A stretch of DNA of 64,000 nt from the NCBI RefSeq assembly GCF_000966265.1, contig NZ_LANF01000011.1:248001-312000 (forward strand), written 5' to 3'. The position numbers were made by a program, and so were the translations under genes. The stretch is from Palaeococcus ferrophilus DSM 13482 (GTDB taxonomy: Archaea > Methanobacteriota_B > Thermococci > Thermococcales > Thermococcaceae). Below are positions 2,042 through 31,098 of this stretch, piece by piece. The number at the start of each line of letters is the position of its first letter. Position 1 is the first letter of the stretch. The notes under the pieces were generated by a model, which did no database searches, had not been told where the DNA came from, and saw only the letters and a list, made by a program, of their open reading frames with translations.

Positions 2042-2962
2042 TCATCCTCCCGGAAAGGCGCGGTAGAGGAAGTATGCGTAGAGGAGAAGGAGCACCACTC
2101 CCGTTTTTCTCCCGACCCTGTTGTTGAGCCGCAGGGAAACGGTTAGGAGGAGCATTACGAGCAGCGTAAGGGGCATTACGAAGGTTTTGTATGCGGCAGA
2201 AATGGGGATGGGCGCTATGAGGGCAGATACACCAAGAACCATGAGTATGTCCAGGATGTTGGCCCCTATAACGTTCCCAACGCTTATGTTCGGTATCTTC
2301 TTGAGGGTCGCCGTCAGGGAGTTGGCGAGCTCCGGGAGGGAGGTTCCTATGGCCACGAGGGTGAGCGCGATAACGGTCTCGGAAACCCCCAGGGTTCTGG
2401 CTATGATCACGGCGCTGTTGACGACGAGCTTGGCTCCTGCCACCACCACGAGGCCGCTGAGGAACATCACGACAGCTTCCCTCTTGGGGTTGCCCCCACT
2501 CTCCGGAACCTCCTCGAGTGTCATGTGCTTTTTGTAGAGGTAGTAGAGGAAACCGAGGTATATGGCTATGAGAACTCCCCCATCGAGCCTCGAAAGGGTT
2601 CCATCCATCATGAGAAGCCACGCGAGAAGTGTAACCGCGACCATGAAGGTGGAGTTTCTCCACGCGACCTCGTCAACGTTGAGGGGCATTATGAGGGAGC
2701 ACAGGCCAAGAATGAGGGCTATGTTGGCTATGGCGCTACCGACACCGTTTCCAAGGGCCATATCCGGCCTACCGCTGAAAGCGGCCGTGGCGGAGACCGT
2801 GACCTCCGGAAGGGTGGTGGCCACGCTCGCAAGAACTAGAGCTATGAGGAACTCGCTAACGCCGAAACCTTTAGCCACGCGCGAGGCCGACTCCACAAAG
2901 GTGTCGCTCCCCTTGATGAGAAGGGCAAGGCCGATTATGAACGTCAGTACTACCACGAGCAC
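2042..2962 (-). CDS. Sodium/calcium exchanger family protein (CaCA)
   Basis: A 306-residue membrane antiporter of the Ca2+/cation exchanger family with about ten transmembrane helices. The two alpha repeats are clear: ALVLASVATTLPEVTVSA (about 40-57, with GNGVGSAIANIALILGL at 73) and ALTLVAIGTSLPELANS (about 199-215, with GNVIGANILDILMVLG at 228). The conserved acidic residue in each TLPE/SLPE motif binds the cation. It probably exchanges Na+ or H+ for Ca2+. The start is uncertain: GTG at 2962 or GTG at 2956, both behind a GGGG-rich site. It stands alone between ppa and the NYN genes. Confidence 0.9.
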   Translation of the reverse strand: MLVVVLTFIIGLALLIKGSDTFVESASRVAKGFGVSEFLIALVLASVATTLPEVTVSATAAFSGRPDMALGNGVGSAIANIALILGLCSLIMPLNVDEVAWRNSTFMVAVTLLAWLLMMDGTLSRLDGGVLIAIYLGFLYYLYKKHMTLEEVPESGGNPKREAVVMFLSGLVVVAGAKLVVNSAVIIARTLGVSETVIALTLVAIGTSLPELANSLTATLKKIPNISVGNVIGANILDILMVLGVSALIAPIPISAAYKTFVMPLTLLVMLLLTVSLRLNNRVGRKTGVVLLLLYAYFLYRAFPGG

Positions 2963-3001
2963 CCCGATCCCCGGGATAAATAAGGGGGACGGTTTAAAAG
3001 G

Positions 3002-3508
3002 TTAACCTTCTTCCCCCTGGGGAATGCCTTCCATCTTTATGACGTAGTCAGCTGCATTTTGAAGGGCCACAGAAAAGCCGGGCTCGATGCCAACGACGAC
3101 CACTTCCTTCCCAACGCGCTTCGCCTCGTTTACTATGGGGAGGAAATCCGCGTCACGCGTGGCCAGGGCTATGACCTCCATGTCGGAGGTGTATATAAGC
3201 TCCATTGCCTCTATGGCAACCCTAACGTCTGTATCGCCCGCCACTATGATTGGTTCAAAGCCCTGGTTCACTATGGCCTCTATGAGGCCCTGCGGGGCAT
3301 ACTGGTTCAGAACAACCTTGGCGATCCTCAGTCTCCCCACCTTCTCTATAGCCGCCTTCACATCCTCGAGCTTGAGGCCGAACTCCTTGCGGAGGATGTT
3401 TGGACCGTCCACTATGAGGCCCACCTTCTTCTCGGGTATCCTTTCCTCCCTCTCCTCGCCTGTTCTCTCCTCTCCCCTACGGAATATCCTGAACAGGGTC
3501 TTTTTCAT
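3002..3508 (-). CDS. NYN (PIN-like) domain protein, LabA/TIGR00288 type
   Basis: A 168-residue protein with a NYN domain, a PIN-like nuclease fold. The acidic motifs are [12 protein letters not shown] (about 33), [13 protein letters not shown] (about 91) and [11 protein letters not shown] (about 116), which would supply the metal-binding aspartates; after a short charged N-terminal region the domain fills the protein. The family is thought to act on RNA, but no substrate is known here. Its ATG overlaps the stop of the upstream paralogue (ATGA), so the two are translationally coupled and may form a heteromer. Confidence 0.85.
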
Positions 3509-4017
3509 CCTCTACCCCCCTGCTGAGGCGTTAGGAGTATTACGTAGTCGGCGCTGTGCTTGAGGGCGGAGCTGAAGCCCGGCTCAACCCCTATCACCAC
3601 CGTTTCCTTTCCCTTCTCCTTGGCCTTCGTTATTAGGGGGAGGAACTCCGCGTTTCTGGTGGCGATGGCTATGACGTCTATGTGGGGGTTGTATATCTCC
3701 CTCATGGCCTCCACGACGAGTTTTACCCCCGTCTCGCCGGGAACTATGATCGGCTCAAAGCCCTGGTTGGCAACCGCCTCTATGAGGCCCTGCGGGGCAT
3801 ACTGGTTCAAAACAACCTTGGCCACCCTTATGTTGCCTATCTTCTCAAGCGCCTCCACTATGTCCTCCAGCTTCACGCCGAACTCCTTGCGTAGAATGTT
3901 TGGGCCGTCTATCAGGAGCGCAATCTTCTTACCGCGGCTCATACGCCGCTTAATCGTCGCAATGCTCTTAACTCCCTCTTTGGTTATCGCCATAATCCTT
4001 TCCCAGTTGCTGGGCAT
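3505..4017 (-). CDS. NYN (PIN-like) domain protein, paralogue of the next gene
   Basis: About 170 residues, close paralogue of the downstream gene; both share [13 protein letters not shown] and QGFEPIIV. It has [13 protein letters not shown], but the later acidic positions differ: [13 protein letters not shown] replaces [13 protein letters not shown], and [11 protein letters not shown] replaces [11 protein letters not shown]. Several candidate metal-binding aspartates are thus lost or conservatively replaced, so this copy may be inactive or regulatory. The start is taken at ATG 4017, six bases after GGCGGTG; ATG 4023 is possible. A TATA-like run, TTTTTATATTTT, lies about 40 bases upstream. 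Confidence 0.82.
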
Positions 4018-25995: not shown

Positions 25996-26148
25996 CAGCA
26001 CCACCTGGAGTTGGTTAACTTAAAGCCCTTAAAACACTTTCCATTTATAAGGGTTCTCTATATAGTCTATTTGTTACTATTGCCCCAATATATTCTACTG
26101 CGGAAAGGTATTTATATTGTACACATGTCCACCCGAGTGGGGATGGAA

Positions 26149-27375
26149 ATGATAGAGGTATTTGGCGACCCTTGGTTCCTGATTACCGTGGTTGTGGGAC
26201 TGTTCATGGCGTGGGCAATAGGTGCAAACGACGCCGCCAACTCGATGAGCACCGCGGTTGGCGCAGGGGCAATAACGCCGAAGCAGGCCGTGGTCATAGC
26301 CGGAGTGCTTGAGTTCACCGGAGCTTATTTCTTCGGAAAGAGCGTTACAGAAACGGTGAGAAAGGGAATACTCGACCCAACGATGATAACCGACCCAAAC
26401 GTGCTCGTTTACGGCTCCATCGCGGCACTCCTTGCGGCGACGCTATGGCTCATTATAGCGACGAAGTTCGGCCTTCCCGTCTCGACGACCCACTCCATCA
26501 TAGGCGGCATAGCGGGGTACGGTATGGTCTACGCCGGAGCCGCCATAGTCAACTGGGGCAAGATGACTCAAGTAGTTCTCAGCTGGATTCTCTCACCCAT
26601 AGTTGGGGCGATAGTGGCATTTGTGGTGTTTAAAGCCCTCGCCAGGAGCACGCTCCAGGCTAAAGACCCCGTGAAGGCAGCCCGCAGGTTCTCACCCGTG
26701 TGGATAGGTCTGGCCTTCGTAATCATAGGGGCCATGTTCTACATCAAGGTGCTCCACGGGAAGGACTTGAGGGTGGCCATAACGAACTACGGCATTCCCC
26801 TCGGCGTAATCGTGTTCATCATAATGTACCTCATCCTGAAGGTTCGCTTCCCGAGCAACGACCCGTACATAGGCGTTGAGAGCGTGTTCAAAAAGGTTCA
26901 GGTCATCACCTCCGGCTACGTGGCTTTAGCGCACGGTGCAAACGATGTTGCCAACGCGATAGGGCCTGTTGCTGCCGTCTATGCCGTGGCCACCATGGGC
27001 ATGGCCGGAATGAAGGTGCCCGTGCCGAGGTGGATACTCGCCATGGGTGGCCTTGGAATAGCGATAGGCGTTGCCACCTACGGGTACAGGGTTATGGAGA
27101 CCGTCGGTAAGAGGATAACGGAGCTCACCAACACTAGGGGCTTCTCAATAGATTTTTCAGCGGCCACCGTGGTTCTTATAGCCAGCTGGCTCGGGCTTCC
27201 AATCTCAACAACTCACACCGTCGTGGGAGCGGTCATTGGAGTGGGCCTCGCCAGGGGAGTAAAGGCCATAAACAAGGACATCGTTAGGGATATAGTTATC
27301 TCGTGGTTCGTTACCGTGCCCGTGGCCGCGGTGATTTCCGGGCTGATATTCAAGGCGCTTATGATGATGGGGTGA
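26149..27375 (+). CDS. pitA: Inorganic phosphate transporter, PiT family
   Basis: A membrane protein of about 408 residues and some ten helices that imports phosphate with H+ or Na+. The two inverted repeats each carry the family motif: AIGANDAANSMSTAVGAGA (about 18-36) and AHGANDVANAIGPVAAV (about 263-279), plus GLPVSTTHSIIGG and GLPISTTHTVVGAV. The promoter is GGTATTTATATTG (26105-26117). Start ATG 26149 follows TGGGGATGG; in-frame ATGs at 26125 and 26143 are alternatives. A DUF47 protein follows four bases later. Confidence 0.92.
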   Translation: MIEVFGDPWFLITVVVGLFMAWAIGANDAANSMSTAVGAGAITPKQAVVIAGVLEFTGAYFFGKSVTETVRKGILDPTMITDPNVLVYGSIAALLAATLWLIIATKFGLPVSTTHSIIGGIAGYGMVYAGAAIVNWGKMTQVVLSWILSPIVGAIVAFVVFKALARSTLQAKDPVKAARRFSPVWIGLAFVIIGAMFYIKVLHGKDLRVAITNYGIPLGVIVFIIMYLILKVRFPSNDPYIGVESVFKKVQVITSGYVALAHGANDVANAIGPVAAVYAVATMGMAGMKVPVPRWILAMGGLGIAIGVATYGYRVMETVGKRITELTNTRGFSIDFSAATVVLIASWLGLPISTTHTVVGAVIGVGLARGVKAINKDIVRDIVISWFVTVPVAAVISGLIFKALMMMG

Positions 27376-27379
27376 TAGC

Positions 27380-28051
27380 ATGCAGGTGTGGACAAAGCTC
27401 TTTGCGAAGAGCCCCTTCAAGCCCCTCATAAAGCACGCTGAAGTTGTGCTCCAGACTGTGGAGGAGCTGGAGAAGGCAGTTCAGCTGTGGGACGAGGGCA
27501 ACTTCGAGGAGATGAGGAAGAAGGCGATAGAGGTTGACCGCCTCGAGGACATAGCCGACAGGATAAAGGAGGAGATAAGGAACAGCCTGAGTTCAAAGCT
27601 CTTCATGCCGGTCAACAGGGGCGACATAATAGTGTACCTCCACATGCAGGACAAGGTGGCCGATGCCGCCGAGGACACCGCCAAGTGGCTCCTCGTCAAG
27701 GAACCCGGGGAGCTCCCGCCCGAGCTCAAGGGCCAGATACTGAAGATGGCCAAGGAGAGCATTAAAGCGGCCAAACTCGTTTACGACGCCATAGTGCAGC
27801 TCGACAGGGTTCTCGAGAGCGGCTTCAGTGAGGCGGAGATAGAGAAGGAGTACGAAATAATCAAGGAGATAGAGAGCGTCGAGAGCAAGATAGATGGAAT
27901 AGACACCGACATCATGAGGGCAGTGCTGTCAATGGAGGACATCCACTGGAGCACGGGCTTCTACCTGCTCAACGTGGCCAGAACGCTGAGCAACATCTCG
28001 GACAAGGCGAAGGATGCAGCGGAGAGAATAAGGCTCATGATGAACAAGTGA
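27380..28051 (+). CDS. DUF47 (PhoU-like) partner of the phosphate transporter
   Basis: A 223-residue helical-bundle protein of the DUF47/TIGR00153 family, distantly like PhoU and nearly always encoded beside PiT transporters, where it probably controls phosphate uptake from the cytosolic side. Heptad-like, acidic helices run throughout (for example EEMRKKAIEVDRLEDIADRIKEE at about 48, with the metal-binding-like E-x3-D pattern, and DKVADAAEDTAKWLL at about 90). It starts four bases after pitA, so they are one operon. A C/D box RNA lies on the other strand just behind its stop. Confidence 0.9.
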   Translation: MQVWTKLFAKSPFKPLIKHAEVVLQTVEELEKAVQLWDEGNFEEMRKKAIEVDRLEDIADRIKEEIRNSLSSKLFMPVNRGDIIVYLHMQDKVADAAEDTAKWLLVKEPGELPPELKGQILKMAKESIKAAKLVYDAIVQLDRVLESGFSEAEIEKEYEIIKEIESVESKIDGIDTDIMRAVLSMEDIHWSTGFYLLNVARTLSNISDKAKDAAERIRLMMNK

Positions 28052-28117: not shown

Positions 28118-28166
28118 CTTAAGGGTACGCCGGGGCACTCTTAAGGTTTTTTATATACTCCCAATG

Positions 28167-28183: not shown

Positions 28184-28280
28184 TTGTGTAGGTAGCTATG
28201 TAGGCGAACGCTTAAATATTTTGGAGTAGATAACAAAAAACGGAGGAGTTCTAGGGAATAGCGAGCGGGGAGGGGATAGT

Positions 28281-29063
28281 ATGGGAGAGTACAACCTCAA
28301 TCCTGACCTTGACCCCACCAGAGACCACGTCCTCTACAGGGACGGCGACCACATGGTGGTCTACCTCGGAACCGCCTCCGGGGCGAGCGCAAGGGGCTAC
28401 GGGGACGTGGACGTGAACGCCTATTTGATAGTGAACCGGAACAAAGGGATTCTCCTCGATCCGGGAGGATACAAGATATTTCCGCGGGTGCTTTCAAACA
28501 TATCCAAATACATAGACCCAAGGAACATTCAGTACATATACATGTGCCACCAGGATCCGGACGTTGCCGGGAGCATCCCCCTATGGAGGGAGATAACGAA
28601 CGCCAAGCTTATCATAAGCTGGCTCTGGGTCAGATTCCTGCCCCACTTCGGGTTTGAGGACGTTGAGAGCGTTGCCCACCCCCTGGAGGACGAGGGAGAG
28701 GTTCTCAACTTCGGCTCCACGACGCTGGAGTTCATACCAGCGCACTTCCTCCACAGCCCCGGCCACTTCACCGTTTACGACAGGAGGAGCAAGTTCCTCT
28801 TCACAGGCGACATAGGAATCGCGCTCCTGGACGAGCCCTACTTAGTTGTTGACAACATGAGCAGGCACATCCAGGCCATGAAGCCAATCCACGAGCGTCT
28901 CATGCCCACCAACAAGGCACTGAAGCTGTGGCTAAGGAGGGTGAGAGACCTCGACATCGAGGCAATACTGCCCCAGCACGGGGCCATAATCCCAAAACAG
29001 CACGTGAAAAAGTTCTTTGACTTCCTAGATGGCCTGAGCTGCGGGCTCGACTCCATGAGGTGA
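28281..29063 (+). CDS. Oxygen-binding diiron protein (ODP), metallo-beta-lactamase fold
   Basis: A 260-residue beta-lactamase-fold protein like the diiron domain of flavodiiron proteins, without the flavodoxin part. Candidate iron ligands: the HQDPD motif (about residues 90-94, in place of HxExD), a histidine in HSPGHF (about 158), the aspartate in FTGDIG (about 175) and the histidine in LPQHGAI (about 233). In bacteria such ODPs sense O2 or Fe(II) for chemotaxis. Here the next gene is a soluble MCP-like protein five bases downstream, so a sensor pair is likely. GGGGAGGGGATAGT precedes the ATG. Confidence 0.82.
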
Positions 29064-29068
29064 GCCGC

Positions 29069-29821
29069 ATGGAGATAAGGAGCATAGTCAGCGCTTCGGA
29101 GGTCCTATCGAACGCCGTTAGGATACAGGCTGCGAACAAGGAGACGTCCAGGATAATCGAGGGGCTGGCGGAGCAGATAAGCGGCAGGTTCATCGAGAGC
29201 AACGCGGTAATCCTTGAGAACATCGAAAAGCTCTCCCGCATAATAGAGGAGCTGGAGATGTTCAGGCAGGAGTTCCTTCCCTTTTTCCAGAGGTTTGAGG
29301 AGTTTGCCAAGGAGTTCAACAAGCTCGTGCAGAACCTCGAGTATATCTCCGGAATAAGCGACTCCATAGGGAAGGTGGCAAAGCAGACAAACCTCGTTGC
29401 TTTGAACGCATCCATAGAGGCGGCGAGGGCCGGGGAGCAGGGAAGGGGCTTTGCCGTGGTCGCGGAGGAGATAAGGAAAATGGCGGTACAGACCATGAAC
29501 CTTACGAACGAGATAAAGGACTTCAACTCCCGGGTCATGGGAGAGCTCGAATCGTTGAGGGACGTTCTCGACGTTATGGACCGGATAAAGGAGGGGACGG
29601 AGATACTGGGCAGGGACATCAACGAGATAGTAGAGATAAGCAAAGTTCTCGAGAACATGTCAAAGGAGCAGAGGGAGATGGTCCACGACATAAAGGGTCT
29701 CAGCGGACTCTCGATAGCGCTTGAAAAGCTCACAGAGATGCAGGAGAAGTTCAACAGAGACCTAAGCACCCTTCTAATTGAGCTGGCAGGCGAGTACGGA
29801 CGCGAGGGCAGAAGGAAGTGA
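29069..29821 (+). CDS. Soluble methyl-accepting chemotaxis-like signalling protein
   Basis: A 250-residue protein with no membrane helix. An N-terminal helical region (about 1-95) is followed by the MCP hairpin with the CheA/CheW-binding tip: VAKQTNLVALNASIEAARAG and GFAVVAEEIRKMA (about 104-140), which is highly conserved, then a long coiled coil. It starts with GAGGTGAGCCGC before ATG 29069, five bases behind the ODP gene; GTG 29060 is an alternative. The length is less than half that of a normal chemoreceptor. No che genes are in the window. It probably passes the ODP's redox state to a CheA elsewhere. Confidence 0.88.
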   Translation: MEIRSIVSASEVLSNAVRIQAANKETSRIIEGLAEQISGRFIESNAVILENIEKLSRIIEELEMFRQEFLPFFQRFEEFAKEFNKLVQNLEYISGISDSIGKVAKQTNLVALNASIEAARAGEQGRGFAVVAEEIRKMAVQTMNLTNEIKDFNSRVMGELESLRDVLDVMDRIKEGTEILGRDINEIVEISKVLENMSKEQREMVHDIKGLSGLSIALEKLTEMQEKFNRDLSTLLIELAGEYGREGRRK

Positions 29822-29871
29822 GGCCCGGCAGGTTTATTTAATTTTCATCCCACATCTTGGACGGTGGTGTT

Positions 29872-31098
29872 ATGACGGTAAAGCTGTTCTACGAGGACCC
29901 GTACCTCAAGGAGGAGAGCGCGAGGGTTGAGAAGATTGAAGTTAATGAGGACAGGGTGCGCGTCAAGCTCGACAGGACGATATTCTATCCAGAAGGAGGG
30001 GGCCAACCCTCCGACAGAGGCACCATATACGGCGAGGGCTTCCACATCGAGGTGGAGCGCGTGGAGGGAAAGGACGAGGTATGGCACGTGGGCAGGCTCA
30101 AGGGAAGGGCTCCCGAGGAGGGCGAGGAGGTGATGATGGAGCTCGACTGGGCGTGGCGCTACGAGAACATGAGGGCCCACACGGGGCAGCACATCCTCTC
30201 CGCGGTTCTAAAGGAGATGTACGGGAGCGATACGACCGGCTTCCAGATTTTTGAGGACTACTGCAAGATAGAGATTAACTTCGAGGGCGAGCTCAGGTGG
30301 GAGCACATACTCGGGGCGGAGCTCGAGGCCAACGAGGTTGTGTGGAACAACCTGCCCGTTGAGGTCGAGGAGTACGAGTACCTCCCCGAGGAGCTGGCAG
30401 GGATACTCAGGAAGCACGTCCCCAACGTGAGGAGCAAGATAAGGATAGTGAAAATTCCCGGTGTGGATGCAACCCCCTGCGGAGGCACCCACGTGAGAAG
30501 AACCGGTGAGATTGGCCTCATAAAGGTGCTCAACTTCTACAGGAAGAGCAGCAAGCTCTGGCGCATAGAGTTTGCCACGGGTTATAGAGCATTGATAGCC
30601 CTCGAAAAGCTCCTCAGGGACTACTGGGAGAGTTTAGACGAGATGCCCAACAAAAACAGGCCCCTCGTGGAGAGGGTGAGGGAGCTGAAGGGAGAGATGG
30701 AGGCGCTTGAGGAGGAGAAGAAGGCCCTCCGTTTAGAGCTGTGGGAGTGGAAGGAACGGAACCTTATTAGAGATGCCGAGGAGGTTGGGGGCGTCAGGGT
30801 GGTAACCCATCTGGAGAGCGCCTCGATGAAGGATGCCCAGGCGTTCGCAATCCATCTCGTGGAGAACAACCCCGGCACGGTGGCCGTTCTGACCGGGGAG
30901 AACTACGTGCTCCTCGCTAAGAACGAGGAACTTGAGGGGCTCTCGATGAGGGAAGTCCTGAAGGAAATGCTCTCAAAGACGGGAGGCGGTGGAGGCGGAA
31001 GCGACAACCTCGCCAAGGGAGGGGGCTTTAATGTTCCCCCCGAGGAGGTTATTAAGGTCGCGGTTGATGTTTTGAAGGGGAGAATAGGGGGTTCGTGA
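29872..31098 (+). CDS. alaX: Alanyl-tRNA editing protein AlaX (long form with DHHA1)
   Basis: A 408-residue trans-editing enzyme that hydrolyses mischarged Ser-tRNA(Ala) or Gly-tRNA(Ala). The N-terminal part matches the second additional domain of AlaRS; zinc ligands are in AHTGQHIL (about 101-108) and CGGTH (about 203-207). A coiled-coil stretch (about 258-295) and a DHHA1 domain with a glycine-rich loop (GGGGGGSDNLAKGGG, about 370) follow. ATG 29872 follows GGACGGTGGTGTT; an ATG 15 bases upstream is rejected. Confidence 0.92.
   Translation: MTVKLFYEDPYLKEESARVEKIEVNEDRVRVKLDRTIFYPEGGGQPSDRGTIYGEGFHIEVERVEGKDEVWHVGRLKGRAPEEGEEVMMELDWAWRYENMRAHTGQHILSAVLKEMYGSDTTGFQIFEDYCKIEINFEGELRWEHILGAELEANEVVWNNLPVEVEEYEYLPEELAGILRKHVPNVRSKIRIVKIPGVDATPCGGTHVRRTGEIGLIKVLNFYRKSSKLWRIEFATGYRALIALEKLLRDYWESLDEMPNKNRPLVERVRELKGEMEALEEEKKALRLELWEWKERNLIRDAEEVGGVRVVTHLESASMKDAQAFAIHLVENNPGTVAVLTGENYVLLAKNEELEGLSMREVLKEMLSKTGGGGGGSDNLAKGGGFNVPPEEVIKVAVDVLKGRIGGS

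Follow-up and report, generated by a model that had tools for sequence, protein, structure and literature searches.

The studied system of this kind is the ODP of T. denticola (TDE2498), an oxygen sensor for chemotaxis, which is genetically coupled to TDE2496, a sensorless soluble MCP that can modulate CheA (PMC7666581). Deletion of this ODP alters CheA ordering, although the protein was not seen at a fixed position in the array (PMC7666581). ODPs have been recruited to signalling pathways of bacteria and archaea, where they form operons with MCPs in two gene orders (PMC7319448). The original ODP study, as cited in PMC7319448, has a title that speaks of an Fe[II] and oxygen sensor and, according to the same source, gives ODPs in a list with further signalling genes. 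ODP goes unmentioned in a paper on archaeal chemoreceptors (PMC9680633). Among the solved ODPs, the PDB titles describe 6r9n (T. denticola) as 'Peroxy diiron species', 6qwo (T. maritima) as a zinc form, and 6qnm (T. denticola) and 6qrq (T. maritima) as apo forms.

A scan with an ODP alignment gathered 80 bacterial ODP loci. At 66 of these loci the very next gene after ODP, with no change of strand, encodes a short MCP that lacks a transmembrane (TM) segment; these 66 belong to Spirochaetota, Aquificota, Thermotogota, Synergistota, Campylobacterota, Calescibacteriota, Dictyoglomota and Thermodesulfobacteriota, and to unplaced bacteria. Marinospirillum and its relatives (loci L140, L145, L148, L149, L150, L155 and L157) carry two tandem ODP genes with no directly adjoining MCP, another arrangement that apparently does not involve a receptor.

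The window analysed here is a stretch of 64,000 nucleotides from Palaeococcus ferrophilus DSM 13482, and the locus lies on contig 11 of this 2.2 Mb Thermococcaceae genome (G000). An earlier note, made from the sequence alone, had placed an ODP gene five bases before the gene of a cytosolic MCP; the coordinates, the matches to PF19583 and PF00015 and the lack of a TM segment bear this out. The features of the locus are as follows.

28150..28157, + strand: TTTATATA, possible archaeal TATA box 5' of the ODP-MCP pair, proposed from the sequence
near 28211: CTTAAATATT, second candidate TATA box, proposed from the sequence
28281..29063, + strand: ODP1, ODP-family diiron protein of 260 aa (ATG at 28281, stop TGA at 29061-29063)
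28548..28562, + strand: HQDPD motif, ODP1 residues 90-94 (sequence and alignments)
29057..29063, + strand: GAGGTGA, Shine-Dalgarno sequence of the MCP gene overlapping the ODP1 stop codon, conserved at thermococcal junctions
29069..29821, + strand: soluble MCP signalling hairpin of 250 aa (ATG at 29069, stop at 29819-29821; PF00015, E 1.3e-29)
29384..29455, + strand: CheA/CheW-contact tip, QTNLVALNASIEAARAGEQGRGFA, MCP residues 106-129 (aligned with the MCPs of the host and with those linked to bacterial ODPs)
29857..31098, + strand: AlaX-like alanyl-tRNA editing protein, downstream (PF07973/PF02272)

ODP1 matched PF19583 with an E value of 2.7e-72 and 243 bits, which passes the curated cut-off of 27.2. 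Its closest solved proteins in a phmmer search of the PDB were the ODPs of T. denticola (6qnm, E 5e-64) and T. maritima (6qrq, E 4e-63), with flavodiiron proteins far behind (about 1e-10 compared with about 1e-63). The AlphaFold model of ODP1 is confident (pLDDT 91.9), and a Foldseek search of the PDB with this model returned ODP chains as its best ten matches (TM 0.82-0.89 by query length, 41-44% identity), the best being 6qwo, 6r9n, 6qrq and 6qnm; here also flavodiiron proteins ranked below the ODP chains, and the nearest fold is thus that of ODP and not of a flavodiiron protein or a Zn beta-lactamase.

The HQDPD motif is present as the first ligand motif, as the earlier note had observed. 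That note had also suggested that its departure from HxExDH might mean a different iron chemistry, and this part is not supported: the same motif is found in all 34 archaeal and bacterial ODPs aligned, in which H90, Q91, D92, P93, D94, H155, H158, D177 and H233 are invariant, and the two bacterial ODPs of known structure, from T. denticola and T. maritima, have the same HQDPDV as ODP1. ODP1 residues 90-95, 155, 158, 177 and 233 match the site of these two proteins throughout (HQDPDV followed by H, H, D and H). Position 158 is R instead of H in a single one of the 30 ODP1 sequences from Thermococcaceae. The predicted metal ligands are H90, D92, D94, H158, D177 and H233, assigned by alignment with flavodiiron proteins and not from coordinates; H155 is also invariant. 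As HQDPDV distinguishes ODPs from flavodiiron proteins (HxExDH), the ODP1 site is an ordinary ODP site, and the idea that HQDPD marks an aberrant iron site was rejected, the motif being the signature of the ODP family. We also considered, and discarded, a flavodiiron protein sequence with PDA as natural variation of HxExDH; the entry, 4dik, turned out to carry the mutation H90A. ODP1 could bind zinc and still have a diiron role, because the zinc-reconstituted 6qwo exists beside the diiron form. A search for anti-phage families gave no match.

The MCP is predicted from a structure model to be a single helical hairpin, with helices at residues 2-120 and 122-249 and the tip at the turn. Its peak 19-residue hydropathy is 0.67, so that it has no TM segment, and it carries neither a HAMP nor a sensor domain. 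The CheA-binding tip is canonical, as the earlier note had stated, and is near-identical to the tips of the other MCPs of the host, from which it differs at a few positions. The MCP falls about 30 residues short of its counterparts beside bacterial ODPs, with alignment gaps in both arms, and its identity to these partners is only 21-28%. A motif scan for the methylation-site consensus found no match in it, with either a strict or a relaxed pattern; in the same scan the host membrane MCPs L003, L004 and L006 each had three strict sites.

Both genes lie on the + strand and are separated by a spacer of five bases (29064-29068). Every thermococcal junction listed has GAGGTG either on the ODP stop codon or straddling it, and ODP1 and the MCP are probably translationally coupled. 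Two candidate TATA boxes precede the pair; the pattern TTTAWATA occurs seven times in the window, where 1.26 matches are expected. A scan for sigma-70 promoters gave no match, as expected for an archaeon. The downstream AlaX gene is preceded by a TATA-like stretch of its own and was therefore left out of the sensor module. Nearly all thermococcal loci with the ODP-MCP pair also contain an AlaX homologue; since this gene is nearly as conserved downstream, adjacency alone is no proof of function. Upstream of ODP1, the window carries a phosphate-transporter-like gene and a PhoU-like DUF47 gene (26011-28051), in place of which most other genomes have an unrelated pair of genes of about 474 and 217 aa.

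The module was then surveyed in 94 Thermococcaceae genomes, in which che status was scored by the presence of CheW-domain proteins (CheW/CheA). The MCP was found in 31 genomes and had ODP1 just upstream in 30 of them; in the 31st (G009) the match starts at a contig edge. ODP1 and the MCP are thus adjacent in 30/30 loci where both are visible. The pair is present in 28 of 34 che-positive genomes versus 3 of 60 che-negative ones (Fisher 7e-15, not corrected for the tree); six genomes have che without the pair, and 57 have neither. In two of the three che-less carriers the MCP is broken, as would be expected if the MCP is useless without CheA: in G069 its N-terminal arm is lost just after the Shine-Dalgarno sequence (L070, about 2492-3740), and in G081 it is interrupted by a stop codon, the absence of che being less sure in this 79%-complete draft. 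The third, G049, has an intact pair and no CheW found in its draft genome. No ODP matches were obtained outside Thermococcaceae in a wider search of the phylum.

The earlier note had proposed looking for che and archaellum genes in the host, and che, CheF and archaellin genes were found. Contig 18 encodes CheA, CheB, CheR, CheY, CheD, two CheC, CheW, CheF and two MCPs (CheA and CheY being named from their sequence and a CheW-domain match), and the genome has eight MCPs in total. At the gene level, the host has CheA/CheW and the archaellins of a motility organelle.

We consider it quite probable that the pair represents the ODP-MCP redox-taxis module in its thermococcal version. By analogy with the bacterial proteins, cytosolic ODP1 would bind two Fe and capture O2 as a peroxo-diiron species, and its action on the co-translated soluble MCP, possibly by direct contact, would change with its state (apo, Fe(II) or peroxo). 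The MCP would use its conserved tip to insert into the CheW/CheA array, where it would shift CheA activity, and CheY-P would in turn act through CheF on the archaellum. Modulation of CheA by an ODP through a receptor is predicted here; the T. denticola system is the only one for which it has been reported. The Thermococcales hosts are anaerobes, and the likely outcome would be that the cell leaves oxygen (or seeks Fe(II)). Homology, a gene order conserved across bacterial and archaeal operons, and the co-occurrence with che genes give good support to the proposal of the earlier note that an O2/Fe sensor feeds chemotaxis through a soluble MCP.

The nature of the signal could be different, with ODP1 chiefly an iron or redox sensor responding to its Fe(II) loading (apo versus Fe2) and O2 binding being secondary. 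The anaerobic life of the hosts, the existence of crystals of both apo and metal-loaded ODPs and the wording 'Fe[II] and oxygen sensor' in the title cited by PMC7319448 agree with such a role, but the metal site is conserved in full compared with the ODPs that form the peroxo species, and we regard this alternative as plausible but rather doubtful. The part played by the short MCP may also be questioned: it could be a structural or inhibitory subunit of the array, on which ODP would act by other means, in keeping with the altered CheA ordering in the T. denticola deletion mutant and the lack of a fixed array position of ODP (PMC7666581). The tight one-to-one co-inheritance of the ODP and MCP genes and their probable translational coupling make this improbable.

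It is very unlikely that ODP1 is a flavodiiron-type enzyme that reduces O2 or NO and merely shares an operon with the MCP. ODP1 does belong to the flavodiiron protein superfamily, but it does not qualify as a flavodiiron protein, with its 260 aa and HxDxDV instead of HxExDH; no flavodoxin domain was found in it by profile search, and no electron-donor gene was recognised beside it. Moreover, the gene constantly beside it, in archaea as in many bacterial phyla, encodes an MCP, and most che-less genomes are without the pair, whereas frames of 390-490 aa with weaker PF19583 matches, presumably flavodiiron proteins, occur regardless of che. The redox-taxis module remains our preferred reading of the pair.

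A second ODP, ODP2, is present in 31 of the 94 Thermococcaceae genomes and absent from the host of the window. It is about 39% identical to ODP1, and its ligand set is complete in the 29 aligned sequences, except that one of these deviates at a single residue. A quick tree placed ODP1 and ODP2 each in one supported group, their branching relative to the bacterial proteins not being fixed. ODP2 loci have no MCP partner, and ODP2 shows no association with che (p 0.37; 94 genomes). In 30 of the 31 genomes it directly follows an uncharacterised gene of about 266 aa, the 31st being at a contig end, and at many loci this gene is itself preceded by one of about 115 aa.

L075:1348-3264: example of an ODP2 locus; others are L014, L016, L020, L022 and more

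Neither the 266-aa nor the 115-aa protein could be assigned to a family of Pfam or NCBIfam; the one hint was a weak CoxG match, below the threshold, in a single homologue. No description of an ODP that has its own partner outside chemotaxis was found in the literature searched, a search that did not cover the original ODP study. ODP2 with its uncharacterised partner is a more novel lead than the ODP1-MCP pair, and suggests further outputs for ODP sensors. Tentatively, the Thermococcales might have split one diiron sensor in two: ODP1 would be a non-adapting O2 alarm acting via a receptor devoid of methylation sites, and ODP2 would have been rewired to the che-independent partner of about 266 aa (with its weak CoxG-like match in one homologue) for an O2/Fe response without chemotaxis. 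We put this forward as a speculation that may well prove wrong.

Compared with known systems, ODP1 shares with the flavodiiron proteins (FprA/ROO; 1vme, 1e5d) a metallo-beta-lactamase core and a diiron-type site, and differs from them by the missing flavodoxin domain and by HxDxDV in place of HxExDH. ODP2 has its ligand set in common with ODP1 and differs from it by its che-independence and by its position behind the 266-aa gene rather than before an MCP. The T. maritima ODP (6qrq, 6qwo) is similar in fold and site, and Thermotogota loci share the ODP-then-MCP order, with MCPs that resemble the solved soluble receptor 3g67/3g6b; unlike these, archaeal ODP1 forms a separate clade, about 42% identical to bacterial ODPs, and has the shortened MCP with gaps in both arms.

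The likeness to TDE2498/TDE2496 of T. denticola (6qnm, 6r9n) comprises the ODP fold, the HQDPDV/H/H/D/H site, a sensorless MCP without TM segment that is genetically coupled to the ODP, and a single CheA system. The differences are an identity of about 42% between the ODPs, a shorter and divergent archaeal MCP, and the output, which is the flagellum in T. denticola and would be the archaellum, via CheF, for the archaeal pair. In conclusion, the ODP-MCP pair belongs to an already known family, archaeal ODPs included, and is mostly expected; what the locus adds is to place an O2/Fe-sensing ODP-MCP module in hyperthermophilic archaea with an archaellum, and thereby to offer a system in which the avoidance of oxygen by a strict anaerobe can be tested.
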